DNA from: SAR324 cluster bacterium
GTDB lineage: Bacteria > SAR324 > NAC60-12
Length of the DNA stretch: 32,142 bases
Direction of reading: 5' to 3'
Assembly: GCA_016764995.1 (NCBI GenBank)
Contig: JAESQU010000042.1
Coordinates: 1-32,142, forward strand
Of this stretch, positions 4,287-29,177 are shown piece by piece (the stretch's first letter is position 1; every line of letters starts with the position of its first letter). The notes under the pieces are model-generated. The model was not told where the DNA came from. It did no database searches and saw only the letters and a list, made by a program, of their open reading frames with translations. The translations under genes and the position numbers were made by a program.

Positions 4287-5126
4287 ATGCATGATTCACT
4301 GATTTCTCCCCAAATCGTAAACGAACATCTTGAAGACTCAAATTGGCGTTTTTTCGATTGCCGTTATGTGCTGACTGAACCGGATAAAAAACAAGCAGAA
4401 TTCGCGGTTTCTCATCTTCCAGGTGCATTGTATGCCCACATGAATCGCGATCTCGCCGCTCCTCCAATTCCGGGAAAAACAGGAAGACATCCATTACCGG
4501 AAAAGCAGGAGTTAATAAAATTATTTTCAACATGGGGGATTGACCACGCTGTGCAAGTTGTAATTTATGATGATACAGGAGGTGCTTATGCGGTTCGGCT
4601 CTGGTGGATGTTACGTTGGCTCGGACATGATGCGGTTGCCGTGATGGACGGCGGTTGGCCGCGTTGGGTTAAGGAAGGGAGACCCGTAAGCGCAGATTTG
4701 ATTATCCCGAAAGCCGTGGAATTCAAAGCGAATCAGCGTGAACATTGGTTAGTCACGGCCGAAGATGTCCGGAACTATTTTGACAATCCGGAAGTACGCG
4801 TACTTGACGCACGCAGCAGAGATAGATACCGCGGAGAAAACGAAACTCTTGACCCTGTTGCCGGTCATATTCCAGGCGCAGTCTCAGCTCCCTTTGTTGA
4901 AAATCTTGATCCAGATGGCAACTTGAAATCAAAATCCGAACTCCGTAAAATGTATTTGGAATTACTTGATGGTTCTCCGGCGGAAAAAGCCATTTCATAT
5001 TGCGGTTCTGGAATCACTGCTTGCCATAACATACTCGCCATGTACTACGCAGGACTTGGAAATTCACGTCTATATTCCGGTTCATGGAGTGATTGGATCA
5101 CCAATCCTGAAAGACTTGTTGCCTGA
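4287..5126 (+). CDS. Sulfurtransferase, two rhodanese domains (3-mercaptopyruvate/thiosulfate sulfurtransferase type)
   Basis: 279 aa; FDCRYVL..., VVIYDDTGGAYAVRLWWMLRWLGHDAVAVMDGGWPRW, VLDARSRDRYRGENETLDPVAGHIPGAVSAPF, active-site loop YCGSGITACHN. Confidence 0.92.
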   Translation: MHDSLISPQIVNEHLEDSNWRFFDCRYVLTEPDKKQAEFAVSHLPGALYAHMNRDLAAPPIPGKTGRHPLPEKQELIKLFSTWGIDHAVQVVIYDDTGGAYAVRLWWMLRWLGHDAVAVMDGGWPRWVKEGRPVSADLIIPKAVEFKANQREHWLVTAEDVRNYFDNPEVRVLDARSRDRYRGENETLDPVAGHIPGAVSAPFVENLDPDGNLKSKSELRKMYLELLDGSPAEKAISYCGSGITACHNILAMYYAGLGNSRLYSGSWSDWITNPERLVA

Positions 5127-5328
5127 AAAGTGTTTTTTTGCAGGTCGGATCATTACTTTTTCAGCATGGCACAATGAATCATCTCCATAAAAAAACATCA
5201 TAAAAAATCTAAAATTCCTGCAATTTTTAACCAATAAGATGCCAAAGGAATAGAATTTGGATTGATATTTTAGCAAGATCTGATAATTACAAAAATTGTC
5301 TGCGCGTAAATTATTCCTGAAACTACTC

Positions 5329-6819
5329 ATGAAATTCCGGAAAACAAATTTTATTATCTGTAAAACCATCCTGGTTTTAGCTGTTTTTATTGCTTATGCT
5401 TCAACTGTATCGGCACAAAATTCGGCAGAATCCATCTCAACTGTTGTGATTGACAGTGCCCCCAAGAAGCTATATTCAGAGCTATATTCAGATGAAACAG
5501 GCAATCAGTTCATGGTGGAAATCTATGAAGAACCACAAGAGGGCCAAAACTTAATCCATTTTCGATCTTTTAAAAATGGACAAATTATCGGCCGAAAATC
5601 ACAAGCACTGGCTGATGCACATAATTTTACTTTTTTCATCGATGAAACAGAAGAACGCATCATGCGCCAAGATACCGAACAGATGCTCTACAACGTCCTG
5701 AAGAAACTGATGGAGGAATCTGACCAGAAATTAAAATCAAATCTGGAAGATATGTTTGATCAGGAAAAATTGGCAAAAAGCCTTTCTGAAAAAATCAAAA
5801 CACCGGACGAGCAAATTGCTACAATGGCCGATCAAATCTCAAAGAAAATCACTTTTGACGGTGGAGCAATTTCTGACATGGCAGAACGTATTTCCAAGCA
5901 AATAAAAACTCCGGAAGAACAAATCGCTGCAATGGCTTCACGTATTTCGAAGGAGATACAAACTCCCGATGATCAAATTGCCGCAATGGCTTCACGTATT
6001 TCTAAGGAGATACAAACTCCCGATGATCAAATTGCCGCAATGGCTTCACGTATTTCGAAGGAGATACAAACTCCGGATGATCAAATTGCGGCAATGGCTT
6101 CACGTATTTCGAGGGAGATACAAACTCCCGATGATCAAATTGCCGCAATGGCTTCAAGAATTTCGAGGGAAATACAAACTCCGGATGATCAAATTGCTGC
6201 AATGGCGTCACGTATTTCGAGGGAGATACAAACCCCGGATGAGCAAATTGCGGACATGGCTTCACGGATTTCGAGGGAGATACAAACTCCGGATGAGCAA
6301 ATTGCTACAATGGCAGATCAAATATCAAAGAAAATCACCTTTGATGGTGGAGCAATTTCTGACATGGCGGAACGGATTTCCAAGCAAATAAAAACGCCGG
6401 AAGAACAGATTTCAACAATGGCGGCACAAATCTCTAAACAAATAAAAACACCTGAAGCACGAATCAATGAAGAGTCATTGGCTTTAACGCTGGCTATAAG
6501 ACTAACACAAAAAGAAAACCTTGTTGCTACAAAAATTCCACCATATGCAGATTTGTTGAACCAAGTTTCTGCCACCAACGAACAGCAGGATTATGAAAAG
6601 GCTATAGACCTCCTGGACGAGGATATTGCCAACCGAACTCCGGAAGAACAACGAAAAGCACTGAAAATATCCGGACTGATGTCGGTACTCGTTGCGTCTA
6701 AAAAATTAAAACGCGCAATCTCAACCATTGATGATTACGACTTGCCTGACGATCCTGGTTTGCGTCAAATATCAGCGGCACTGTCAGAATGGCTGAGTAA
6801 GAACTTGGTTTTGGAATAG
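5329..6819 (+). CDS. Exported protein with 18-residue tandem repeats (helical/coiled-coil-like)
   Basis: ORF 5296..6819; better start ATG at 5329 (track start is TTG). Hydrophobic leader ILVLAVFIAYASTVSAQ; repeats of TPDDQIAAMASRISKEIQ; helix-rich C-terminus. Confidence 0.75.
   Translation: MKFRKTNFIICKTILVLAVFIAYASTVSAQNSAESISTVVIDSAPKKLYSELYSDETGNQFMVEIYEEPQEGQNLIHFRSFKNGQIIGRKSQALADAHNFTFFIDETEERIMRQDTEQMLYNVLKKLMEESDQKLKSNLEDMFDQEKLAKSLSEKIKTPDEQIATMADQISKKITFDGGAISDMAERISKQIKTPEEQIAAMASRISKEIQTPDDQIAAMASRISKEIQTPDDQIAAMASRISKEIQTPDDQIAAMASRISREIQTPDDQIAAMASRISREIQTPDDQIAAMASRISREIQTPDEQIADMASRISREIQTPDEQIATMADQISKKITFDGGAISDMAERISKQIKTPEEQISTMAAQISKQIKTPEARINEESLALTLAIRLTQKENLVATKIPPYADLLNQVSATNEQQDYEKAIDLLDEDIANRTPEEQRKALKISGLMSVLVASKKLKRAISTIDDYDLPDDPGLRQISAALSEWLSKNLVLE
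5800..6447 (+). repeat. 12 in-frame tandem repeats of 54 bp (18 codons), 648 bp total
   Basis: Threonine codon phases at 5800 and 6448 give 648 = 12 x 54. Units 3-9 are near-identical TP(E/D)(E/D)QIA(A/D)MASRIS(K/R)EIQ. Units 1-2 and 10-11 are the variant pair TPDEQIATMADQISKKIT/FDGGAISDMAERISKQIK; unit 12 is TPEEQISTMAAQISKQIK. Confidence 0.93.
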
Positions 6820-6965
6820 AGTTAGGCAAAAGACTTTTTTATATTTAGGAAAGAAATATTTATATATTCCTTCTTTTTCTTGTTAAGTCCTGCAAATCCG
6901 TGTACGATCCCCATTGGTACTTCTTCAAGACTTTAAAGTTAATAAACCCTTTCTGAAAAATAGCA

Positions 6966-8558
6966 ATGAGTGATTCCTCATTTAATTTGGAACAATACGA
7001 AATTCACCCTCGAAATATCATTCGCAATGCCACACCTCCTAAATTGTATGAAGAGGCACTGGCTCATGAACCGGACGCTTCCATTTCTTCTGTGGGAGCA
7101 CTGATTGTTTCTTCTTATGAAAAAACCGGACGCAGCCCAAAGGACAAACGCATCGTCGAATATCCCAGCATCAACAAAGACGTTTGGTGGGGAAATATAA
7201 ACATTGGCATGGATGAAGATACATTCATGATTTCAAGGGGACGTGCAATCGACTATTTGAATACACAAAAAAGAATTTACGTTGTTGACGGTTACGCAGG
7301 TTGGGATCCAAAATACCGGATCAAAGTCCGGATTGTTGCCACTCGTCCGTACCATGCTCTGTTCATGCACAATATGTTAATTCGACCAAGCGCAGATGAA
7401 CTAGCGGACTTTGGAGATCCGGACTACGTGATTTTTAATGCCGGAGAATTTCCCGCAAATCCACTTACTAAACACATGACTTCACGTACCAGTGTCGAGT
7501 TGAGTTTTGAGCGCAAAGAGTTTGTGATTCTCGGTACAGAGTATGCCGGAGAAATGAAAAAAGGTGTTTTCACAATTATGAATTACATCATGCCAAAACA
7601 GGGAATTCTTTCCATGCACAGTTCTGCCAATGAAGGTAAAGAGGGCGATGTAGCTGTTTTTTTCGGCTTGTCCGGAACCGGAAAAACCACGCTTTCCGCA
7701 GATCCAAAGCGGGAGTTAATCGGCGATGATGAACATTGTTGGACTGACGACGGAGTTTTTAACATTGAGGGCGGCTGTTATGCCAAATGTATCAACCTCT
7801 CAGAAGAAAAAGAGCCGGACATCTACCGCGCAATCCGTTTTGGAACAGTGCTGGAAAATGTAGATTATGACAAGGATACGCGCGTTGTTGATTACGACGG
7901 AACCACCCACACAGAAAACACACGTGCTTCTTATCCCATAGAATATATTTTGAACGCAAAAATTCCCTGCATGGGAGGGCACCCCCAGAATATCATTTTC
8001 CTGACTTGCGATGCCTTTGGTGTCTTGCCTCCTGTCAGCAAACTTACACCCGCACAGACCATGTATCATTTCATCAGCGGTTATACGGCAAAAGTCGCGG
8101 GTACGGAAATGGGAGTAACTGAACCGGAAGCGACCTTTTCAGCGTGTTTCGGTGCCGCCTTCATGGTTTGGCATCCGAGCAAATATGCGGAATTGTTAGC
8201 AAAACGTATTGAACAAAACGGAACTTCGGTTTGGCTGGTGAACACCGGTTGGAGTGGTGGCGGTTATGGAGAAGGTGAGCGGATGTCACTCAAATACACC
8301 CGTTCAATCATTGATTCTATTCTGGATGGAACCATGAAAAATGCGCCAATTGAACATGATGATTTGTTTGGTTTTGATGTTCCAACTGAATGTCCGGAAG
8401 TTCCAAGCGAAATTATGAAACCACGCAATACATGGTCTGATGGAAACGCTTATGACAAAGCTGCCTTAAAGCTGGCAAACATGTTTCAGGATAACTTCAA
8501 ACAATTCGAAGAAGGATCCAGCGAGGAAATAATTCAAGCGGGGCCTAAACTTTCTTAA
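6966..8558 (+). CDS. pckA: Phosphoenolpyruvate carboxykinase (ATP)
   Basis: 530 aa; [88 protein letters not shown]. Confidence 0.97.
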
Positions 8559-8709
8559 CTATTCAAACTTTTTTTCCTGCCGAAAACGTGCTTGTCACGA
8601 CGTTCCGCTTTCTGCAATGATGATTTTTAATTTGTCAATTCCTCAGCAGATTAGTGTGCTGAAATAATTTAATATTGTACTTCATTACATAACCGAAAAC
8701 TAAACAAAA

Positions 8710-10518
8710 ATGATTGAAAAACTGCGTCAAGCAATGATCAAACAAGGATTAGATATGTTGATTGTTGTCTCCGGCGATGAGCACCTCAACGAATACCTGC
8801 CTGTGCAGAATTGGCGTTTGCGGGCTTCAACTAAATCCGGAAGCTCTGCGGGTTTTTCCGGATCAGCCGGAACAGCGATTATTTGTGTTGAGGGACGTTC
8901 TCAGCTTTTTGTAGATTCTCGTTATCATTTACAGGCGGAGCAAAGCTGTGCCGAAAATTTTGATATTATGAAGCTCGGAAATGAAGGTGTTCCGGAACCG
9001 CAAAAATGGATTTCCGCACAGACTGAAAAGACTTTAAAAGTTGGCGCAGATCCATTTGTGATGAGTCCAAAAGAATGGCGACGCTACGAAAATGCAATTG
9101 GCAAATTTGGTCATACTCTGTTGCCGACTACTCCTAATTTAGTGGACACAGTTTGGGATAATAGACCAAATCCTCCTCAAAAAGAAATCTATCCCCTCGC
9201 TTTAAAATACACTGGAAAGGAAAGTGCCGACAAGTTGCAGGATATCCGGAAGGAAATGAATGAATCCGGAATACAGGATGATTCAAAGCTGGATGTATTG
9301 CTGTTAACAATGCTTGACGAAATTGCCTGGCTCACAAATTTACGCGGCAGCGATATTGAATACAACCCCGTTTTTGAAGCTTATGCAGCAATTTTTCAGG
9401 ACCGTGCACTTTGCTTTTGTCATCATCCGGACGCAAATTTAAGTGAACATTGTCCAGAATGGGAGTTCCGGCCTTATGCTGAATACCTCGGCTTTTTAGC
9501 AGAACTTGCAAAAGAGGAAGCTGTCAAAGTTTGGTTGGATCCTTCCACGATTACAATGGGCACACGAATGGCTTTTGCCGATGCTCAGGTTTTTGAAAAA
9601 TGTAGTCCCATCGTTTTAGCAAAGGCACTTAAAAATTCAACTGAAATATCCGCCACAAAAAACGCACATAAACAGGCTGGTGTTGGAGTTATAAAAAGTT
9701 TTCGGCGTTTACAAAACGCATTTGAAAGAGGACAGCCGGTAACGGAAAAAGAATTTTCAAACTGGCTTCATGAAGCATACTCGCAAGCTGAGGATTTTTC
9801 TGACCTTAGTTTTGGTACAATCGCAGGTTCCGGGCCGAATGGAGCAATTGTACATTACGGAAATCCAGATTCAAAAAACCCGATGCGGCCCGGAGAACTG
9901 CTCCTTGTAGATTCTGGAATTCAGTGTTCCGGCGGAACCACCGATGCCACGCGAACTGTCATTCTTGGAACACCGGATGAAAAGCAAAAACGGATTTACA
10001 CTTTGGTCCTGCAGGCCCATATTCGACTGGCAAGACAGGTTTTTCCTGAAGGTACAACCGGCTCATCTCTGGATGCAATTACCCGTTCCGGACTCTGGAA
10101 TGCAGGTTTGGATTATGGTCACGGAACAGGGCATGGAGTCGGTGCGTTTCTGAATGTGCATGAAGGTCCGCAGCGCATCTCACCTGTTTCTCATGATGTG
10201 GCTCTGCAAGCAGGAATGGTGATTTCCGATGAACCGGGATATTACGAAACAAACTGGGGAGGAATTCGTTTGGAAAATCTTTGTTTTGTCAAAAATGCTG
10301 AGGGATTACAGGAACATCCTGGCGGAAAGGGTTGGCTTTGTTTTGAAACTTTGACTCTGTTTCCTTATGAACGCAGATTGATTGACAGAAATTTGCTTTC
10401 AGTAGAAGAACTAAAATGGCTCGGTGAATATCATCTCCAAGTTTTAAAGGAAATTTCGCCAATGCTGGATAATCCGGAAGATGTACAATGGCTGGCTTGG
10501 GCTTGCGGGTTGGCTTAA
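8710..10518 (+). CDS. Xaa-Pro aminopeptidase, M24 family, three-domain type
   Basis: 602 aa; VDSGIQCSGGTTDATRTVILG, DYGHGTGHGVGAFLNVHEGPQRIS, MVISDEPGYYETNWGGIRLENL metal-binding motifs. Confidence 0.94.
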   Translation: MIEKLRQAMIKQGLDMLIVVSGDEHLNEYLPVQNWRLRASTKSGSSAGFSGSAGTAIICVEGRSQLFVDSRYHLQAEQSCAENFDIMKLGNEGVPEPQKWISAQTEKTLKVGADPFVMSPKEWRRYENAIGKFGHTLLPTTPNLVDTVWDNRPNPPQKEIYPLALKYTGKESADKLQDIRKEMNESGIQDDSKLDVLLLTMLDEIAWLTNLRGSDIEYNPVFEAYAAIFQDRALCFCHHPDANLSEHCPEWEFRPYAEYLGFLAELAKEEAVKVWLDPSTITMGTRMAFADAQVFEKCSPIVLAKALKNSTEISATKNAHKQAGVGVIKSFRRLQNAFERGQPVTEKEFSNWLHEAYSQAEDFSDLSFGTIAGSGPNGAIVHYGNPDSKNPMRPGELLLVDSGIQCSGGTTDATRTVILGTPDEKQKRIYTLVLQAHIRLARQVFPEGTTGSSLDAITRSGLWNAGLDYGHGTGHGVGAFLNVHEGPQRISPVSHDVALQAGMVISDEPGYYETNWGGIRLENLCFVKNAEGLQEHPGGKGWLCFETLTLFPYERRLIDRNLLSVEELKWLGEYHLQVLKEISPMLDNPEDVQWLAWACGLA

Positions 10519-12150: not shown

Positions 12151-12669
12151 ATGGCAGATGAAGAAGTTGCCGGTGCCGGTACTACTGAAGACGGAGGCGG
12201 AGGCGGCGGAAAAAAGAAGCTAATTATTATTGTCGCGGTAGTGCTTTTGTTGGTAATTGGCATCGTCGTGTTTTTACTGATGTCTGGTGAAGAAGAAGAG
12301 CAATTACCGGAAGAAGAACAGCAGGTGACAGACGTGGCTGAGCCTCTGGCAGAACCGATATTTCTACCACTGGAAAGCTTTGTGGTAAATCTCAAAGACG
12401 GACGACGTTTCTTAAAAACAACGATTCAACTGATGCTCAGTGAACCAGGAGCATCTGCGTATTTGTCAATCCGCCTGGTTGAAGTCAAAGACATTGTGTT
12501 GGCGGAATTGCAGGAATTGTCAGTTGAGGATGTTAAACAGTCAGATGCCAGAGAAGCTTTGAAACAACGTTTAATCAGCGCAATCAGTCAAATTTTTCCC
12601 AGTAAGCCGGAATGGGAAGACCCTGAACCGATCAGAAAAGTTTTGTTTGAGGAATTTGTAATCCAGTGA
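12151..12669 (+). CDS. fliL: Flagellar basal body-associated protein FliL
   Basis: One TM (LIIIVAVVLLLVIGIVVFLLM) followed by FliL core PLESFVVNLKDGRRFLKTTIQLML...IRKVLFEEFVIQ. Confidence 0.85.
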   Translation: MADEEVAGAGTTEDGGGGGGKKKLIIIVAVVLLLVIGIVVFLLMSGEEEEQLPEEEQQVTDVAEPLAEPIFLPLESFVVNLKDGRRFLKTTIQLMLSEPGASAYLSIRLVEVKDIVLAELQELSVEDVKQSDAREALKQRLISAISQIFPSKPEWEDPEPIRKVLFEEFVIQ

Positions 12670-12783: not shown

Positions 12784-13290
12784 ATGGACAAAAGTTCACA
12801 GAATAATTCCATAAATCGAAAAACAAACTGGCTTTGCGGCAATTTTGGAAATAAAGCAATCTGTTTGTTGTTAATGCTTACAGGGTTATTTTTCTTTGCT
12901 TCAGCTTTGCACGCAGAAAAACATGCTGTTGAGGAAACAAAAGTCATACGGGAAGGACCTCCTCCACTGGAAAACCCACAATATTTGGATCTTGGTACTT
13001 TCGTAGTAAATATGCCTGGAGACAAATATTTTCTTAAAAGCAGTATCCAGCTGGGATTTGAAAATGCCGCTGCAAAAGATTGGCTCCTGGCTCGATTGCC
13101 AATTGCTAAAGATCTGGTAATTACACATCTTAATTCGATTACGGTTGAACAATTTGATGACACAAAAAATCGAGCTGTTATAAAAAATGATTTACAAATT
13201 CGCTTGAATTCACTTTTTCCCAACAAGGCTCCCTGGGAAGATATGGTGCCAATTCGAAGAATACTTTTTCTGGAATTTTACCGGCAGTAG
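12784..13290 (+). CDS. Second FliL-like protein with N-terminal signal/TM segment
   Basis: DLGTFVVNMPGDKYFLKSSIQLGFEN...FPNKAPWEDMVPIRRILFLEFYRQ, collinear with the upstream FliL (FPSKPEWEDPEPIRKVLFEEFVIQ). Confidence 0.75.
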   Translation: MDKSSQNNSINRKTNWLCGNFGNKAICLLLMLTGLFFFASALHAEKHAVEETKVIREGPPPLENPQYLDLGTFVVNMPGDKYFLKSSIQLGFENAAAKDWLLARLPIAKDLVITHLNSITVEQFDDTKNRAVIKNDLQIRLNSLFPNKAPWEDMVPIRRILFLEFYRQ

Positions 13291-20617: not shown

Positions 20618-22000
20618 TCACCGCAAATAAACTTCCTTTTCCAGCAACTGCAGAACGTCTTCGCGTTGGAATTCCATTGCATAATCAGCTGCGGTTTTTT
20701 GAGCAAAATCAACTACAGACGGATCAGCCCCTTTATTGAGTAACAAACCTATTGTTCCAATTTTTCCACGACGTGTTGCCAGAATAAGAGCAGTTTTTCC
20801 GCTATTATTATGCATGTTGACTCCTGCACCACGTTTTAATAGCTCCCAAATTGCTTCCGTATTTCCTTTTTCTGCAGCCCACATGAGTGCGGTCCAACCT
20901 TCGTGAGTCCGGGCATTTAGATTTACTCCGGATTTCAAAAATAATTTTAACATCGGCAAATTACCATGAAAAGCAGCCCACATAAGTGGAGAAAAGTTTC
21001 CTTGATCCGGATCGGCGCCATGCTTGAGCAATAATTTTACTATGGGCAAATTTTGCATTGAAGAGGCCCAAACCAATGGTGTGTCTCCAAACTCGTCATT
21101 TATGCCAACATTCGCACCATGTTCTGCCAGCAATTTGACCAGTTCCGTATTTTGCTTTTTGATTGCAAGCATCAAAGATGTATAGCCATTTTGATCACTT
21201 TTTTCCAAATCAACACTAGTAGCTAAAAATTGTTTGACTGCCGCCAATTCACCTTGTTTGACGGCCTGTATCAAGGTGCTCTTTGATTTTTCTTGAATTA
21301 ATACACTTTCTGCAGGCCCTGTTTTCACTGCAAATTGTGTCTTGTTATCATTCAAAAATATTGCATGAATTTTCCCTGATTGATACTCAGGCCAGAGAAG
21401 AATCATGAGAGTGAGAGCAATTCCTGTTAAACTTAATAACAGAATCCAGCCTAGCTTGAGCCAGAGTGAATACTTTTCTGAAATATTTTTCTGCAGGACA
21501 AACTCAACATCATCCGGTTTTTCAGCATAAAATTGATTTTCCGCATCATCGGCTTGAGTCTGTTCTGTTTCAATTACAGGAAGCACATTCTGATAAACAG
21601 TTTCTTCTTTTTCTGTGGAAAAGAAAGGAGTTGGGTAACGTGAAAAATATTTTGGTTTTATCGTAAATCTGACTTCTTCTTGTTTCTTCTGCTCAACATT
21701 TTGAGGCCGTCCTTCTGAGATTGCCAGCAGAATTCCGGGGTCAAACTGCGTGCTTCCTGTAATAGAAATTGGGATGTTTTGCAAACGAACATGCCTGATA
21801 ATTAACCCTAAAAGCTCATGTGTATCATGGCTTATGACTTGCAAATTTTCTAAATCCAGAGTAACCTTCCGCATGTTACTCTCAGCCAAACTATTTGCGA
21901 TTACTTGCATTTCCGACTTTATATCATTTTGCTTCAACTCATCAATTACTTTCAGAGTCGCAATTTGATCTTTTTCTGTAAGAACTATTCGGTTCAACAT
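20618..22000 (-). CDS. STAS-like domain / TM / ankyrin-repeat protein
   Basis: 460 aa. N-term STAS-like (MRKVTLDLENLQVISHDTHELLGLIIRHVRLQNIPISITGS), TM LWLKLGWILLLSLTGIALTLMILLW, then ankyrin repeats (NGYTSLMLAIKKQNTELVKLLAEHGANV; GDTPLVWASSMQNLPIVKLLLKHGADP; SPLMWAAFHGNLPMLKLFLKSGVNL; GWTALMWAAEKGNTEAIWELLKRGAGV; GKTALILATRRGKIGTIGLLLNKGADP). Confidence 0.8.
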   Translation of the reverse strand: MLNRIVLTEKDQIATLKVIDELKQNDIKSEMQVIANSLAESNMRKVTLDLENLQVISHDTHELLGLIIRHVRLQNIPISITGSTQFDPGILLAISEGRPQNVEQKKQEEVRFTIKPKYFSRYPTPFFSTEKEETVYQNVLPVIETEQTQADDAENQFYAEKPDDVEFVLQKNISEKYSLWLKLGWILLLSLTGIALTLMILLWPEYQSGKIHAIFLNDNKTQFAVKTGPAESVLIQEKSKSTLIQAVKQGELAAVKQFLATSVDLEKSDQNGYTSLMLAIKKQNTELVKLLAEHGANVGINDEFGDTPLVWASSMQNLPIVKLLLKHGADPDQGNFSPLMWAAFHGNLPMLKLFLKSGVNLNARTHEGWTALMWAAEKGNTEAIWELLKRGAGVNMHNNSGKTALILATRRGKIGTIGLLLNKGADPSVVDFAQKTAADYAMEFQREDVLQLLEKEVYLR

Positions 22001-22110: not shown

Positions 22111-23115
22111 ATGATAAATTTTACGCGTAAATTGCTTTTGGTGTCGTTAATAATCGCCTTAAGTTGGACCACTGCTTTTGCAGAAGAGGAAGAGCCCGTT
22201 TTTTGGAAAGATCGGCAGATTTCACAATTGGAGCAACTCACTCCAAGTCTGCTGGAGTCTGTCAAAAGTATGCAAAACAAAATTAGCTCTGTCGCAATTT
22301 CCAGCATTTCTTTTGGAGATTCCCTGCCCAGTAGTTTTCGCAAAGTCGCAACCGCGCGTTTACAACAGACACTCACCAGTTTGATAAAATTGAAAGTGAG
22401 TGTCTGTGAATCCTGTAGTCAAATTCGTACAGATATTTCCGGAAGTTTTCTTAAAATCAGCCGTGGAATCGCGGATGATAACTACCGCCGAGAGATTGCC
22501 AAAGAATTAAATGTAAAGGGATTTCTCGACATTGCTGTATTTACAAGTGAAGGTGAACAACTTTCTATCTCACTGAACGCTTATGAAGCAAAAGGAGGTG
22601 AAATTGTTTATTCTAAAATTGTTACCGGAACACCTCCTAAAAGCGGAACTTACATACACGCGTTCTATGGTAAGATGACTGTTCCAATTACTTTTACCAG
22701 CACATCCTCCGGAAGCGTTACCACCGTTGAGCACCAGGCTAGAGTATTAGGTGCAGAAAAAATGGTTCGACTTACAGATGACTGGAGTTTTACCGGAGGC
22801 GGAGCAATGTTGAGTGACGACAACTCCAACTTGACAGATAAATACGAAAAATCAATCACCGGATTTTTGATTGATGGCACAATTATTTATGACGTTTTCA
22901 ACTTTGGCGGTGATCAAGTAGCATTTTCTTTGATTGCCGGTTTAGGCATGATGACAGTGTCACCTTTTAACAATCCGTCATATTTAAAAACAGGGCTTAG
23001 CTTATCAGTAGCAGAACAATTGACACTCAATTACCATTACCTGCTAATGCTGACAACAGATGAAAGCGCTACGGCTTCCGGAGCATCAATTATTTCCATT
23101 GGCTGGAAATTCTAA
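22111..23115 (+). CDS. Exported protein, CsgG/LpoB/FlgO-like N-terminal region and predicted outer-membrane beta-barrel-like C-terminus
   Basis: Signal peptide LLLVSLIIALSWTTAFAEE; alpha/beta region YRREIAKELNVKGFLDIAVFTSEGEQLSISLNAYEAKGGEIVYSKIVTGTP; C-terminal amphipathic strands ending ...ASIISIGWKF (terminal Phe). Confidence 0.55.
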   Translation: MINFTRKLLLVSLIIALSWTTAFAEEEEPVFWKDRQISQLEQLTPSLLESVKSMQNKISSVAISSISFGDSLPSSFRKVATARLQQTLTSLIKLKVSVCESCSQIRTDISGSFLKISRGIADDNYRREIAKELNVKGFLDIAVFTSEGEQLSISLNAYEAKGGEIVYSKIVTGTPPKSGTYIHAFYGKMTVPITFTSTSSGSVTTVEHQARVLGAEKMVRLTDDWSFTGGGAMLSDDNSNLTDKYEKSITGFLIDGTIIYDVFNFGGDQVAFSLIAGLGMMTVSPFNNPSYLKTGLSLSVAEQLTLNYHYLLMLTTDESATASGASIISIGWKF

Positions 23116-23149: not shown

Positions 23150-24481
23150 ATGAAACTATTTAATAATTTCAAATTATTAAGTTCATTTTATCAAAAAGTA
23201 TTTTTTGTTGGCCTTGTTCTGGTGACAGCTCTCAGTGGTTGTACTACGACAGAAGATACTGTGGAACCGGTTGCTGAACTTCCAATCAAGAAAAAAGTGC
23301 TTTTCAATCAGAGAACAGATGGCGGAAAAAATTCTGTTACGGTCATTGAAGAAACACAGGGCAACAAAAGGATTCTGCGAGTTGTTTTACAACGCGGTGG
23401 TCTGCAATCCAACTTAATCCATCCAATTGACAGTCCTAATTTTGTCATTGCAGTTCCTCTGCAGGATGCAACAAGCAAGCGTTTAAGTTTAAAAACAGCG
23501 AATTTTGAACAAAGTCTTAAACTTGATATAGATCAATTACTCTCACGTTACCTTTCTCCGGAACGCTTTAATGTTTCTGTCATAATAAATTGGGACAAAA
23601 AATTGCTGCAGGAAGTACAACTCAAAAATATGCCGCTTGAAACTGATGCCTCAAAGGTTGAAGCAAATAATGTAAATGAAGACGGCGATGACGAAATCTC
23701 TGAAAGCGCAAAACGAAACCATGAATTGAAAGAAGCCCTTAAATCGGTGCAAGTAGGTGTACTACTGGATAACACTCTTCCTGAAACACAAGAGCTGTTT
23801 TTAATGAAACTGATTCCAGCTCAGGAATTTTACAATGCTGATCGTGGAGATACTGTTTCTGTGGAAAGGACATCTTTCCCAAAACCTTTTTCAGACAGTA
23901 TTGCGCCTTATGAAGAACAGATCGTCAGGCGAAAACTGATTGAGTTGTTGATGAAATATGTTGCTAAAACGGATTTTGTGGTAAACGTTAAATTTTCTTT
24001 GATTGAAAGTGACGAAAATACAAAAAACAAGGCACCATCGTCCAGTAACATAAAAATGGCGATAAATTTACTGCTCGATGAAACTGTTCTTCCTGCGGTA
24101 GATACTTTCCTGAAGGAAGCAATCCCGCTGGCAATAAATTTTGATAAGAAACGTGGTGATACACTTTTAATTATCCGCAAGGATTTTCCGGAACGTTCCG
24201 ACAGTTCAATTTCGCCGGAACAGCGCAGTGCGCTTAAAGATTATCGCATAAAAATACTTGAAGCTTTCCAAACAGGAGACTATGTCGCGGGCTTGGAATG
24301 GGCAGCAAAGGGTTTGAAAGTGGCGGTAAAACGTTCAGACAAAATTTTCATTCTGAAAATGAAAGGTTCATTACATTTCCTCCTGGAAGAAAAAGAGGAA
24401 GCCCTTGAGATGTGGGAGCATGTTCAACTTTTAGATCCTAAAGACGAAGAAGTGCGTCAAATGCTGGAAAATTTGGAGTAA
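23150..24481 (+). CDS. Lipoprotein with two FliF ring-building-motif (RBM3)-like modules and C-terminal TPR
   Basis: Lipobox VTALSGCTTT. Module 1: ERFNVSVIINWD...VQVGVLLDNTLPETQELFLMKLIPAQEFYNADRGDTVSVERTSFP. Module 2: TDFVVNVKFSLIE...IKMAINLLLDETVLPAVDTFLKEAIPLAINFDKKRGDTLLIIRKDFP. TPR-like YVAGLEWAAKGLKVAVKRSDKIFILKMKGSLHFLLEEKEEALEMWEHVQLLDPKDEEV. Confidence 0.6.
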   Translation: MKLFNNFKLLSSFYQKVFFVGLVLVTALSGCTTTEDTVEPVAELPIKKKVLFNQRTDGGKNSVTVIEETQGNKRILRVVLQRGGLQSNLIHPIDSPNFVIAVPLQDATSKRLSLKTANFEQSLKLDIDQLLSRYLSPERFNVSVIINWDKKLLQEVQLKNMPLETDASKVEANNVNEDGDDEISESAKRNHELKEALKSVQVGVLLDNTLPETQELFLMKLIPAQEFYNADRGDTVSVERTSFPKPFSDSIAPYEEQIVRRKLIELLMKYVAKTDFVVNVKFSLIESDENTKNKAPSSSNIKMAINLLLDETVLPAVDTFLKEAIPLAINFDKKRGDTLLIIRKDFPERSDSSISPEQRSALKDYRIKILEAFQTGDYVAGLEWAAKGLKVAVKRSDKIFILKMKGSLHFLLEEKEEALEMWEHVQLLDPKDEEVRQMLENLE

Positions 24482-24484
24482 GGA

Positions 24485-25663
24485 ATGAAAAAAAACAAAG
24501 TTTCCGGTGCCGAAATTTCTCTTTACACCTTGCTCATTATCTGTCTACTGATCTTTTTGTATATCGACAAAGTGCACGCGCAGGATTCTGTCCGGAATGA
24601 TGTTAATGCACAAGTCGAAGATCCTTCTCCTGAAAAAGCGGCAGAGGCTGCTGAAAAAAAACAAACTCTTGAAGAACTGCTTGCGGTTCCATTTAATCAA
24701 ATTAAGCAAGAGCAGGAAGAGGAATTAGGCCTTTCCGGTGATGGATCTGAATCTGACAAAAAAAGTAAAAGTAAAGACGGTGACGTAAAATTACCTCCAC
24801 CTCCGGAACAAAGAAAAGTTGAAAGAGATTTAGAAAAACAGTTGGATGAGATTTTCCGGGAGAAATTGCCAAAAGCGTATGTTGGTGTTTCTGTAAGTAT
24901 TCGTTATATTCTGGAAACTGTTCCTGTCACGAGACGAGATAAGAGTATCTCAAAAATAAAGTTGCCTGGATTTGAAAATAATGTCTGGGTACCGACAGAA
25001 ACGAAAAAAATAATCGGCATAGTAAATCAAGTGCGGCCGTACACGACAATTTTTGCTGTCGTGAACACTCCTGTTTCTCTCTTCAATGTTGAAGTTCTTC
25101 GACAAACTTTAGACAATCGGATTAAATTTCTCAACTTGACTGGAAGAGATGTACTCAAAATGGTACATGTTCCGTTTACGACTCCAGCCAAGTCTTCTGT
25201 AATTACCCTTGGAAACGCGGCGGCTCAACTTGCGGAAGCAGATCAAAAGGATGCTGACGAAAAGGAAACAGAAAAAGAAACTGATAATGCTTCAATGGTT
25301 GAGGAAGAACCTGGAGTTGATGGTGAGGATGAGAGTCTTGTAGATGCGGAAGAAAAACCGGAAGCTGTTTTGGAGCCTGATCCTGAACCGCGGAAGATAG
25401 ACATGAAAGCTAGAGTTGAAACCACACGCTATCTATTGCAGGCAAGAAAGAGTTATCTGATTGAAGATTATGACACCGCTATCACCGCACTCCGCAGAGC
25501 AATTGAACTCAATCCATTTTCATCACAGGCTTTTGCTATGCTTGGTTCCATTTACTACCGGCTTGGCTGGAACAGAATGGCAATAGAGAATTGGCAACAC
25601 GCCCTTGAACTTGATCCAACAAATGAGGGTCTGAAAAAATATCTCCTGCGTTTTTCAAGGTAA
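24485..25663 (+). CDS. Exported/membrane-anchored protein with one FliF RBM3-like module and C-terminal TPR
   Basis: N-term hydrophobic LYTLLIICLLIFLYIDKVHAQ; DEIFREKLPKAYVGVSVSIRYILETVP...IKLPGFENNVWVPT...IIGIVNQVRPYTTIFAVVNTPVSLFNVEVLRQTLDNRIKFLNLTGRDVLKMVHVPFTTP; TPR ARKSYLIEDYDTAITALRRAIELNPFSSQAFAMLGSIYYRLGWNRMAIENWQHALELDPTNE. Confidence 0.6.
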   Translation: MKKNKVSGAEISLYTLLIICLLIFLYIDKVHAQDSVRNDVNAQVEDPSPEKAAEAAEKKQTLEELLAVPFNQIKQEQEEELGLSGDGSESDKKSKSKDGDVKLPPPPEQRKVERDLEKQLDEIFREKLPKAYVGVSVSIRYILETVPVTRRDKSISKIKLPGFENNVWVPTETKKIIGIVNQVRPYTTIFAVVNTPVSLFNVEVLRQTLDNRIKFLNLTGRDVLKMVHVPFTTPAKSSVITLGNAAAQLAEADQKDADEKETEKETDNASMVEEEPGVDGEDESLVDAEEKPEAVLEPDPEPRKIDMKARVETTRYLLQARKSYLIEDYDTAITALRRAIELNPFSSQAFAMLGSIYYRLGWNRMAIENWQHALELDPTNEGLKKYLLRFSR

Positions 25664-27609
25664 TGATGTTCAAAAAAAAATATTTGAAGCCAAACAAGCC
25701 TGGACTCATAAATCCTCACAGATTTTTTCTGTCTGTTTTAGTTTCCTCAATCATATTATTTTTGCTTGCTCCAACTCTTTCTGTTGAAGCACAGGAACGT
25801 GTAAGGTCGCTCAGCATACGCCAATTAGAAATTGAAGAGGCGATCCGCAACGGACTCAAATATTACCTGGAACCCAGGGATTATGTGCTGCGTGTAAAAC
25901 TATTTGGAGAGGAACGCTCTGTAAGTATGGCAAACGAAACTCTTCCAGGCTTCGGTCAACTAAATGAACCTTCCAGCACAAGTGGTGCAAAATATTGGCA
26001 AATCACTAGGATGCGTGTGGATTTGGTGATGCACAAAGAAGTTTCGCCTTCAGTTAATTCTTACATCGGTGAAATTGTTCCTATCCTCAGTGGACTTGAT
26101 TATGAGCGCGGAGATGAGTTGATTTTTGTGCCGATTTTACCAAGCGAGCCTTTTCCTGAAAAGTTGGATTTGTCTGGTGAATCTGCGGATTTGCCTGATC
26201 CAATGGCGGAAGCTGTTCCTGAAGATGCAAAAGAAGAAGGTGAGGATCTAAAAGTTGAGCTTACTGCGGAAGAAGTGGAAAAGTTGGAGGAAGAAAAACC
26301 GATTTGGTTGAGGATGAGTGATATAGAAATGATTCTTGCAGGAATGTTATTGTTGCTCATACTCTTGTTTTTATGGGTTCTGTGGAAACTTAGCAAGCTC
26401 AAAGCCGCTGGAGCTGATAATGCAGGTTTTCCCGCATTGATGCCGCCTGATTTACAAACACCTCAACTGCCATTACCTCCACAACAAGGCTTGGTTTCAA
26501 TTCCGGATCCCATTGATAAATTGCTGGGTAAAAACGGACATTCGGATTATGGAATCAATGACGCTCAAATAAGAGAAGACAACGAACGTCTCATTCAAGA
26601 AATCATTAAACAACTCATTGGACGAAACGATTGGAAAGAGGAATTGGTCCATGAGATGTCGCGCGACAAGCAATCGATGGAAATGCTGACCAAGCTTATT
26701 GCAACGCTGGGTATGAGTGCATCAAGAAAACTCTTTGCCGGAACAATTCCAAATAAAACATATTTGGATATTGAAAAATTGGCGGAAGAAGCAAATCCTT
26801 CTCCTGAAGAAGCAAATGCTGTTTTAAAAGATGTGCAGAAATTTCTGCTCACCAAACAGTTAACGGATCCGGAAGATAACAAAACAAATCCTTTTGGATT
26901 CATGGATCAGCTGACAACATCACAAATCGGATTTTTGATAAAAGATGAACCCGCAAAAATAAAAGCCTTTGTAATCATACGCATGGAAAGCGAGGAGGCC
27001 GCAGAATTACTTCGTGATCTTCCAAAAGATGAGCGCACCAAAGTAGCCTTGGAAATGGGAAAGATTCACGAACTTCCACTTGAACTGGTTGAGAAAATTG
27101 GCTACAACCTTGCAGAAAAAGCGAGACATGTGCCGGATGAGGGTACAGTTGGAGTTGATGGAATAAAATTCATGGCGGACGTGCTTAGTGAACTTGATAA
27201 CACAACCAGAGATGAATTGATTAATGGCTTGCGAACCTCAGATATTAAACTGAGTGAGAACATTGAGAGTCATTGTTTTATTTTTGAGTCACTTCCGGAT
27301 GTACCAAAAGACATATTACTGGAGGTGGTAAGAAAATTACAACCTGATGCAGTGATTACGGCGATTTCCGGATCTACCACAAAAATTAAGGAAGCGGCAA
27401 TCATGTGTTTTCCTGAAAAAAGCCGTTCCGCACTTGTGTCTTCACTAAAATCAAAATCTCCTGATTCAGCTGAAATACGGGCTGCTCGCAAATTATTTAC
27501 GCAATCTATGCGTGATATGGCGGATGCCGGACGCTTGGATTTGAAAGAAGTAAATACAAAATTCACACAACGCGACAGTGCTCCGGAATCTGCGCCAACT
27601 AAAAGTTAA
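25663..27609 (+). CDS. Membrane protein with periplasmic FliF RBM-like region, TM, and cytoplasmic FliG-like (N-M-C) region
   Basis: TM1/signal FFLSVLVSSIILFLLAPTLSVEAQE; RBM-like LKYYLEPRDYVLRVKLFGEE...LPGF...ITRMRVDLVMHKEVSPSVNSYIGEIVPILSGLDYERGDELIFVPILPSEPF; TM2 MILAGMLLLLILLFLWVLWKL; FliG-like MLTKLIATLGMSASRKLFAGTIPNKTYLDIEKLAEEANPSPEEANAVLKDVQKFLL...LTTSQIGFLIKDEPAKIKAFVIIRMESEEAAELLRDLPKDERTKVALEMGKIHELPLELVEKIGYNLAEKA...GVDGIKFMADVLSELDNTTRDELINGLRTSDIKLSENIESHCFIFESL. Confidence 0.65.
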   Translation: MMFKKKYLKPNKPGLINPHRFFLSVLVSSIILFLLAPTLSVEAQERVRSLSIRQLEIEEAIRNGLKYYLEPRDYVLRVKLFGEERSVSMANETLPGFGQLNEPSSTSGAKYWQITRMRVDLVMHKEVSPSVNSYIGEIVPILSGLDYERGDELIFVPILPSEPFPEKLDLSGESADLPDPMAEAVPEDAKEEGEDLKVELTAEEVEKLEEEKPIWLRMSDIEMILAGMLLLLILLFLWVLWKLSKLKAAGADNAGFPALMPPDLQTPQLPLPPQQGLVSIPDPIDKLLGKNGHSDYGINDAQIREDNERLIQEIIKQLIGRNDWKEELVHEMSRDKQSMEMLTKLIATLGMSASRKLFAGTIPNKTYLDIEKLAEEANPSPEEANAVLKDVQKFLLTKQLTDPEDNKTNPFGFMDQLTTSQIGFLIKDEPAKIKAFVIIRMESEEAAELLRDLPKDERTKVALEMGKIHELPLELVEKIGYNLAEKARHVPDEGTVGVDGIKFMADVLSELDNTTRDELINGLRTSDIKLSENIESHCFIFESLPDVPKDILLEVVRKLQPDAVITAISGSTTKIKEAAIMCFPEKSRSALVSSLKSKSPDSAEIRAARKLFTQSMRDMADAGRLDLKEVNTKFTQRDSAPESAPTKS

Positions 27610-28703: not shown

Positions 28704-28796
28704 AAAACCTTTAACATTTAGGTGAAAATTTCATGGAGTTTGCATCAAGTCTATGCAAACAAAAAGGCGCATTCAATACTAAACCAAACCAATCCA

Positions 28797-29177
28797 ATGA
28801 ATGTACATCAAACAAGTTCCGTATTTCAGCAGAGAAATTCAGTTTCCGGAAATGAACAAAGTACTTCCGTTTCAAGCAATCAAAGACTTTCATTTGAAAA
28901 TATTCGTGTTTTTCGTCAACACTTTGAACAAGGATCCACCCCGTTGCGTTCCGTTTTGGGAGATGCCCAACATCAGACAATGATGGTTGCAATGTATGAA
29001 GGAACAGAAAAATTGCTGAATCAGGATGTTTCACAATTTGCTGTGCTGGAATATCTGGAAGGACTGAAATTGACTGCCCAGAAATTACGCCAACAAGGTA
29101 TTTCCGGAGATCAATTCAGAACTACTTTGCTGGAACATGCTGTCTCAACTGTCAATAATCTTGTCCGTTCTTCCTGA
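28797..29177 (+). CDS. Small protein of unknown function
   Basis: ORF 28722..29177; alternative ATG 28797 gives MNVHQTSSVFQQRNSVSGNEQ...LLNQDVSQFAVLEYLEGLKLTAQKLRQQGISGDQFRTTLLEHAVSTVNNLVRSS. No competing ORF of comparable quality over its length. Confidence 0.5.
   Translation: MNVHQTSSVFQQRNSVSGNEQSTSVSSNQRLSFENIRVFRQHFEQGSTPLRSVLGDAQHQTMMVAMYEGTEKLLNQDVSQFAVLEYLEGLKLTAQKLRQQGISGDQFRTTLLEHAVSTVNNLVRSS

Follow-up and report, generated by a model that had tools for sequence, protein, structure and literature searches.

The window analysed here is the whole 32,142-nucleotide stretch of contig JAESQU010000042.1 from a SAR324 cluster bacterium (GCA_016764995.1), and this study concerns an operon of envelope proteins within it. 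Three adjacent open reading frames (ORFs), at 23150-24481 (443 amino acids), 24485-25663 (392 amino acids) and 25663-27609 (648 amino acids), encode a lipoprotein, a protein that joins a module resembling a ring-building motif (RBM) to tetratricopeptide repeats (TPRs), and a protein in which parts of FliF and FliG are fused. The first two ORFs lie 3 bp apart and the last two overlap by one nucleotide at TAATG, precisely as the original prediction, made from the sequence itself, had described. A gene for a predicted outer-membrane barrel precedes them. The features are as follows:

22111-23115 (plus strand): predicted outer-membrane protein with a signal peptide, a periplasmic TolB-N/LpoB-like domain with a conserved CxxC, and a C-terminal 8-strand barrel (AlphaFold2 model, Foldseek; first gene of the conserved operon)
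23150-24481 (plus strand): lipoprotein (lipobox LSGC, Cys31) with an N-domain, two modules like the third RBM (RBM3) of FliF, and a C-terminal TPR (Pfam, HHalign, model)
23282-23479 (plus strand): lipoprotein N-domain, whose homologue in other orders is a stand-alone lipoprotein-TPR gene; a gene fusion (HHalign)
23495-23890 (plus strand): ring-building-like module 1 (M1) of the lipoprotein (FliF RBM3 match; model)
23915-24184 (plus strand): ring-building-like module 2 (M2) of the lipoprotein (match to M1)
24485-25663 (plus strand): RBM-TPR protein (protein 2), predicted to be periplasmic, with a signal sequence, one module and C-terminal TPRs (Pfam TPR E 9.8e-10; module match; invariant LPGF)
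24800-25198 (plus strand): ring-building-like module of the RBM-TPR protein (HHalign matches to M1 and the fusion module)
25663-27609 (plus strand): FliF/FliG fusion with a signal sequence, one module, a transmembrane helix, a FliF-tail-like segment and a FliG-like domain (FliG_M E 4e-12 and FliG_C E 1e-12, over cut-off; two hydrophobic segments; solved FliG match)
25798-26160 (plus strand): ring-building-like module of the fusion, with LPGF loop and RGD motif (alignment, HHalign)
26308-26409 (plus strand): transmembrane helix of the fusion, residues 216-249 (hydropathy)
26578-26661 (plus strand): segment of the fusion positioned like the FliG-binding tail of FliF (judged by eye)
26920-27543 (plus strand): FliG middle and C-terminal domains of the fusion, with Ser-Ser in place of the acidic torque pair (Pfam, structure match, alignment)

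The four modules lie close to where the original prediction had placed them. Since single-sequence scans against Pfam and NCBIfam are alone too weak for placing such modules, each was excised from an alignment of 17-20 relatives and compared by HHalign, with unrelated and column-shuffled profiles as controls. For most control pairs the probability (P) did not exceed 0.5%, but it rose to 16% (E 1.6e-3) in one shuffled pair and to 2.7% in one unrelated pair, and scores of that size were taken as noise. The modules matched one another (M1/M2, E 5e-17; M1/fusion, 6.5e-16; M2/fusion, 2e-11; M1/RBM-TPR, 1e-9; RBM-TPR/fusion, 9e-8), and M1 matched the RBM3 of SAR324 FliF above noise (P 70.6, E 4e-5). 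The direct FliF matches of the other three (P about 18-22 only) were equalled by a shuffled control and were discarded as evidence, so that they connect to FliF by way of M1. On the lipoprotein, the family YscJ_FliF_C of Pfam (PF08345) scored just below its cut-off (22.7 bits against 23.8, E 1.5e-4) and exceeded it in several relatives once neighbouring matches were summed; over the relatives it touches both lipoprotein modules and, weakly, that of the fusion. A search of all three proteins for the N-terminal transmembrane helix and domains 1-2 of FliF (PF01514) gave nothing with an E-value of 1 or below.

Structure prediction agrees with the profiles. In an AlphaFold model of the lipoprotein (19 sequences; predicted local distance difference test, pLDDT, 75.9) every module is arranged helix-strand-strand-helix-strand, and the best four fold matches among 350,542 PDB chains were all FliF membrane-supramembrane (MS) rings. 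Their whole-chain TM-scores are low (0.17-0.19), as expected where domain orientation is not fixed. The LPGF loop noticed in both downstream proteins proved invariant in each of them (17 and 20 sequences), and appears in the lipoprotein modules of relatives as well. Two of the three proteins had also been said to end in TPRs; these are clear in the RBM-TPR protein, while in the lipoprotein they score weakly by Pfam (0.053) and are supported by profile comparison (E 6e-17) and the model. Taken together, the profile comparisons, the Pfam matches and the PDB folds confirm that the four modules are homologous and resemble the third ring-building domain of FliF.

The fusion protein supplies the link to the flagellar rotor. 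Its FliG_M and FliG_C domains scored 46.5 and 48.4 bits (cut-offs 25 and 23.3), comparison with a solved FliG structure gave E 4e-23, and its two hydrophobic segments correspond, by hydropathy, to a signal sequence and a transmembrane helix. The FliM-binding EHPQR motif is not kept, the position reading DEPAKIK, a loss in line with the absence of FliM and FliN from the operon. Between the helix and the FliG domain, a stretch that by eye resembles the FliF tail reads RPDLAxxLxxxW in f2 relatives and GRNDWKEELVHEM, a degenerate form, in the window protein. Judged by its sequence, the fusion is shown to be the equivalent of the C-terminal half of FliF, that is, its third ring-building domain and second transmembrane helix, joined to FliG.

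At the other end of the operon, the barrel protein was modelled with a pLDDT of 81.6, its eight strands spanning residues 180-333, and Foldseek returned the OmpA, NspA and OprF barrels together with LpoB and TolB. Of the genomes compared, 29 from SAR324 have its gene and about 330 others do not; it adjoins the lipoprotein gene throughout the conserved loci. Other SAR324 orders and classes have an extra lipoprotein-TPR gene between the two, whose N-domain matches the N-domain of the window lipoprotein (HHalign P 97, E 1.3e-10; every other target P <1). Such a fusion of genes supports a joint function. As a candidate fifth ring module the extra gene was rejected (P about 1), its match being to the lipoprotein N-domain instead. 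The earlier proposal that the set arose by duplication of modules agrees with the homology of the modules, and needs amending for the lipoprotein N-domain, which derives from a separate gene that still stands alone in other orders.

The order barrel, lipoprotein, RBM-TPR protein, fusion is conserved through the genus, family and class, with the additional lipoprotein-TPR gene in order- and class-level relatives, and the operon conservation asked about at the outset is therefore found at every level from genus to class. Genes for an export gate, an ATPase, a rod, a hook or a filament are absent from the operon, and in none of the loci read does it include an export gate, ATPase or secretin-like gene. 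The canonical flagellar genes of the same organism lie apart from it, FliF on contig C209, FliG on C33 and FlhA on C99.

A dedicated MotA-MotB stator accompanies the operon. In a member of the same family (G022, L049), genes for MotA and MotB immediately follow the fusion, and in relatives at the level of order and class (L050, L051, L052, L055, L096) they immediately precede the barrel. The window's own genome encodes the dedicated pair on contig C215 (L080; 9230-10198 and 8590-9228, minus strand), unlinked to the operon, with 62% (MotA) and 58% (MotB) identity to the L049 pair. Its flagellar stator is separate, on C208 (L081), a locus with one MotA and two MotB genes. The dedicated MotA matches solved MotA/PomA structures (E 7e-26 to the MotA of 6ysf) and retains the channel motifs PAFGM.GT and TTLYG. 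It carries about 50 additional residues between membrane helices 1 and 2 that the flagellar MotA of the same genome does not have; by MotA topology these would lie on the periplasmic side. MotB_plug and the OmpA domain, which binds peptidoglycan, are over cut-off in the L049 MotB, and the window genome's dedicated MotB, reading TFADLMTLLFCFF, keeps the ion-binding Asp. In a MotA tree the dedicated MotA, a second paralogous set and that of L059 (both described below) form a clade with 100/100 support, which joins the flagellar MotA of SAR324 (97/88) and is distant from TolQ. By these sequence criteria the stator is of flagellar type, not of the TolQR/ExbBD form.

Among 52 SAR324 genomes the parts occur together (fusion/stator, p 7e-8; fusion/barrel, p 2e-10; barrel/stator, p 3e-9), although these p values assume independent genomes, which related genomes are not. 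When only the 18 genomes at least 90% complete are counted, the stator is present in 7/7 with the fusion and in 1/11 without it.

A profile of the module-plus-membrane region of the fusion matched genomes of other phyla. There, two loci encode fused FliF/FliG proteins (L190, L191), and two others (L192, L193) encode a barrel-TPR protein, MotA, MotB, a FliF-like module protein and a separate FliG, with canonical FliG genes elsewhere in the same genomes. This split arrangement, FliF-like protein and FliG with MotA-MotB, is also seen in L218-L232 and L239. In the phylum of G105 the FliF-like protein was matched in 101 of 149 genomes, and all 15 loci read contain barrel-TPR, MotA, MotB, FliF-like protein and FliG in the same order. 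Because a coiled coil is part of the profile, a number of the 101 matches may be spurious, which does not apply to the 15 loci read. Many FliF-like proteins terminate in a FliF-type tail (for example GQPDTATRIIDAWL), and a FliG-binding tail is recognisable by eye in the split homologues (GQPDAATRILREWL). Two further lineages contribute L239, of the split type, and L241, of the fused type with MotA and two MotB; in the latter (4708-9025, G259) the fused module-FliG protein stands beside the MotA gene and two MotB-like genes. Matches in G192, G169 and G329 were ordinary flagellar FliF, and that in G024 (L195) was a transmembrane-segment match in an unrelated protein; all were set aside.

Most of these genomes appear to lack the flagellar export gate. 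FlhA was not found in 43 of the 56 matching genomes tested, 23 of the 43 being at least 95% complete, and its frequency did not differ between matching and non-matching genomes (13/56 vs 2/12, p 1.0). For 11 of the 15 loci read, the genome has no FlhA over cut-off, including G397, a single 2.8-Mb contig. A general tie of the system to flagella had been favoured while 38/39 genomes had FlhA; it was dropped after FlhA-negative homologues were found in other phyla, since matching genomes without FlhA indicate that the system at large is not a flagellar accessory. MotA charges of the R90/E98 type are retained in nearly all split-type operons, whereas the local alignment is ambiguous for the SAR324 dedicated MotA. 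The acidic pair of the FliG torque helix is retained in L191, L192, L224, L227 and L231, and in L224, L227 and L231, all FlhA-negative, the MotA charges, the MotB Asp and the acidic pair are retained together.

We interpret the window as encoding the rotor and envelope-spanning part of a non-flagellar, MotAB-powered, FliG-based machine, with a probability of roughly 0.6. The original prediction had proposed an undescribed trans-envelope complex of stacked or concentric rings. The predicted outer-membrane lipoprotein, periplasmic protein and inner-membrane protein stand; the barrel, the MotAB stator and the FlhA-negative homologues were absent from its account, and with these three the complex becomes a probable ion-driven motor, while a simple accessory of the flagellum becomes harder to sustain. 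As proposed, MotAB anchored in peptidoglycan would admit ions and push the FliG domain, and the module proteins would form one or more periplasmic rings, or a shaft, passing the force to the outer-membrane lipoprotein and barrel. The output would probably be movement at the outer membrane or cell surface, such as gliding or the moving of a surface polymer, rather than swimming or secretion, since the operon is without genes for export gate, ATPase, rod, hook and filament. Surface movement is our best guess because the chain of proteins ends at the outer membrane, but as the least certain step it is a tentative choice that may well prove wrong. Ring assembly, rotation and output are all steps that we infer. 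Taking the homologues into account, we lean slightly towards a widespread, undescribed class of ion-driven motor in which MotAB, FliG and FliF-type rings connect to the outer membrane and neither a flagellum nor an export apparatus takes part. Most of the members sampled from one phylum, itself largely FlhA-negative, would have this motor, as would SAR324 and several other lineages, and duplication of ring modules and gene fusion would still be elaborating it.

Several observations weigh against a non-flagellar motor in SAR324, and some of them favour an accessory role instead, with the set supplying extra rings and extra stators to the flagellar motor, comparable to the additional disks of complex motors. 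FlhA is present in all 27 operon-bearing SAR324 genomes, FliL, FliO and FliP lie approximately 6-10 kb upstream in the window itself, and in the tree the dedicated MotA falls in with the flagellar MotA of SAR324. Within the genus of the window, the dedicated pair has moved away from the operon. We nevertheless regard the accessory role as improbable: five flagellated SAR324 genomes, 93-99% complete, are without the operon (G017, G024, G033, G041, G042), canonical FliF, FliG and MotAB are present separately, and 43 matching genomes lack detectable FlhA, with presence of the system independent of it. The torque residues raise another difficulty. The acidic pair (D288/D289 in Escherichia coli) is Ser, Thr or Ala in 17/17 SAR324 fusions, and several FlhA-negative homologues have lost it by deletion; the torque contact cannot work in its classical form, and if the SAR324 version turns, its contact chemistry is different. 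The structure models, built on 19-24 sequences, are also of moderate confidence (pTM 0.42, 0.56).

Loss of that acidic pair would suit a non-rotating force transducer like Tol-Pal or TonB-ExbBD, in which the stator moves an envelope bridge for maintenance of outer membrane or peptidoglycan and the FliG domain is merely a docking adaptor. The barrel's periplasmic domain, with its resemblance to TolB-N and LpoB, and the lack of appendage genes point the same way. The stator, however, pairs a flagellar-type MotA with an OmpA-type MotB, unlike TolQR or ExbBD (compare PMC12505986), a ring-shaped partner is to be expected from the FliF-type modules and the FliG domain, and torque residues are retained on both sides in some FlhA-negative genomes; we consider such a transducer a little less probable still than the accessory role. 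Shared ring-building modules also recall the bases of type III secretion systems and the sporulation channel SpoIIIA-SpoIIQ, which would make the module rings a secretion conduit. This is very improbable, given the absence of export gate, ATPase and secretin-like genes from the operon in all loci read, the failure to find the FlhA/SctV family in 43 genomes, and the fact that FliG and MotAB play no role in either system. Lastly, flagellar remnants without filaments are known (discussed in PMC12199754), but a decayed, functionless leftover of an old flagellar motor is the least credible explanation, one we count as already contradicted by intact frames, strong conservation across phyla, invariant residues and a five-gene order kept in 15/15 loci.

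Other gene sets resemble parts of this machine. The same genus and family also have a second set, compact in form (L039:5470-10924, L098:6335-11805, L038:5169-10570, L037:7122-11267, L196:4939-10409), which comprises a module-transmembrane-FliG-like protein, MotA, a long MotB with an OmpA domain and, mostly, a beta-barrel-like protein. The module of the FliG-like protein gives a match to the one in the RBM-TPR protein of the window (E 1.2e-8), and TolQ/ExbD-like genes adjoin the set in L037-L039 and L098. At L059:4151-18413 (G021), a diverged barrel protein, a FliG-like membrane protein and MotA/MotB lie directly upstream of genes that resemble, by eye, contractile-tail sheath and tube genes. 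Signal-transmembrane proteins of approximately 600 amino acids occur at L035:6641-8461 and L036:7360-9153 (G041, G043), the former weakly FliG-like (E about 1e-6) and the latter similar to it; no MotA was found alongside at either locus. Neither these FliG-like proteins nor the L059 protein gave a significant module match, and they were rejected as RBM proteins. Within the window, a protein encoded divergently from the operon at 20618-22000 (minus strand) has an N-terminus that looks STAS-like, one membrane helix and C-terminal ankyrin repeats; it is retained beside the operon in the genus and in L047 and L048, and is possibly a regulator or accessory. At 28722-29177, a 151-amino-acid protein without family matches stands next to the operon across the genus only. 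FliO and FliP are preceded by two tandem FliL genes (12151-12669 and 12784-13290).

Both FliG and FliF count as flagellar hallmarks. Of the non-motile species in a 2025 survey, 11% had rotor proteins but no filament proteins, and the survey raised the question of another function for them (PMC12199754). The operon is a concrete candidate for such rotor proteins, bringing rotor, stator and outer-membrane part together in FlhA-negative genomes. Previous work on SAR324 touches on motility in passing: it has reported scattered flagellar genes and suggested that the cells may glide (PMC4782131), recorded genes for flagellar motility in every genome (PMC9031357) and placed cell-motility structures mostly above 200 m (PMC8364033). 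The sections consulted of PMC12505986 describe flagellar-type and generic stators, with no FliG-linked non-flagellar set among them. No earlier description of such a system was found in the open-access literature, subscription papers and bioRxiv preprints being largely uncovered, and to this extent 'undescribed' still holds. The function of the system is inferred, and a description outside the literature searched is possible. If the interpretation is true, the operon represents a new kind of envelope motor and speaks to the question of a flagellar motor core existing independently of protein export, and it advises caution in calling a genome flagellated from FliG or MotA alone.

Compared with known machines, the closest likeness is to the flagellar motor. 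A domain like the third ring-building domain of FliF, with its RGD motif, the second transmembrane helix, FliG_M and FliG_C, a flagellar-type MotA, and a MotB with ion-binding Asp and OmpA domain are common to both. Unlike that motor, the present set has no first transmembrane helix or domains 1-2 of FliF, does not keep EHPQR, and has an operon without genes for FliM/FliN, export gate, rod, hook and filament, while it adds module-TPR proteins and an outer-membrane barrel and has homologues in FlhA-negative genomes. Known FliF-FliG fusions (PDB 8z4d, 8z4g) likewise place MS-ring and rotor parts in one chain, but with a full-length FliF, where the window protein has its C-terminal half only. The general ring-building fold is shared with SctJ/SctD and SpoIIIAG/SpoIIQ, although the best structure matches here are FliF only and no export system accompanies the operon; the type III injectisome differs further in that its rings are found with an FlhA/SctV export gate. 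ExbBD-TonB, TolQR-Pal, GldLM, AglRQS-Glt and ZorAB likewise set an ion-driven inner-membrane stator to work on envelope parts without a flagellum, but the stator described here is of flagellar type, and TolQ sequences fall far outside the clade of its MotA. To our knowledge, none of these five systems includes a FliG rotor or FliF-type rings. The set resembles the core of the flagellar motor, yet lacks defining features of FliF, of FliG and of the flagellum itself.

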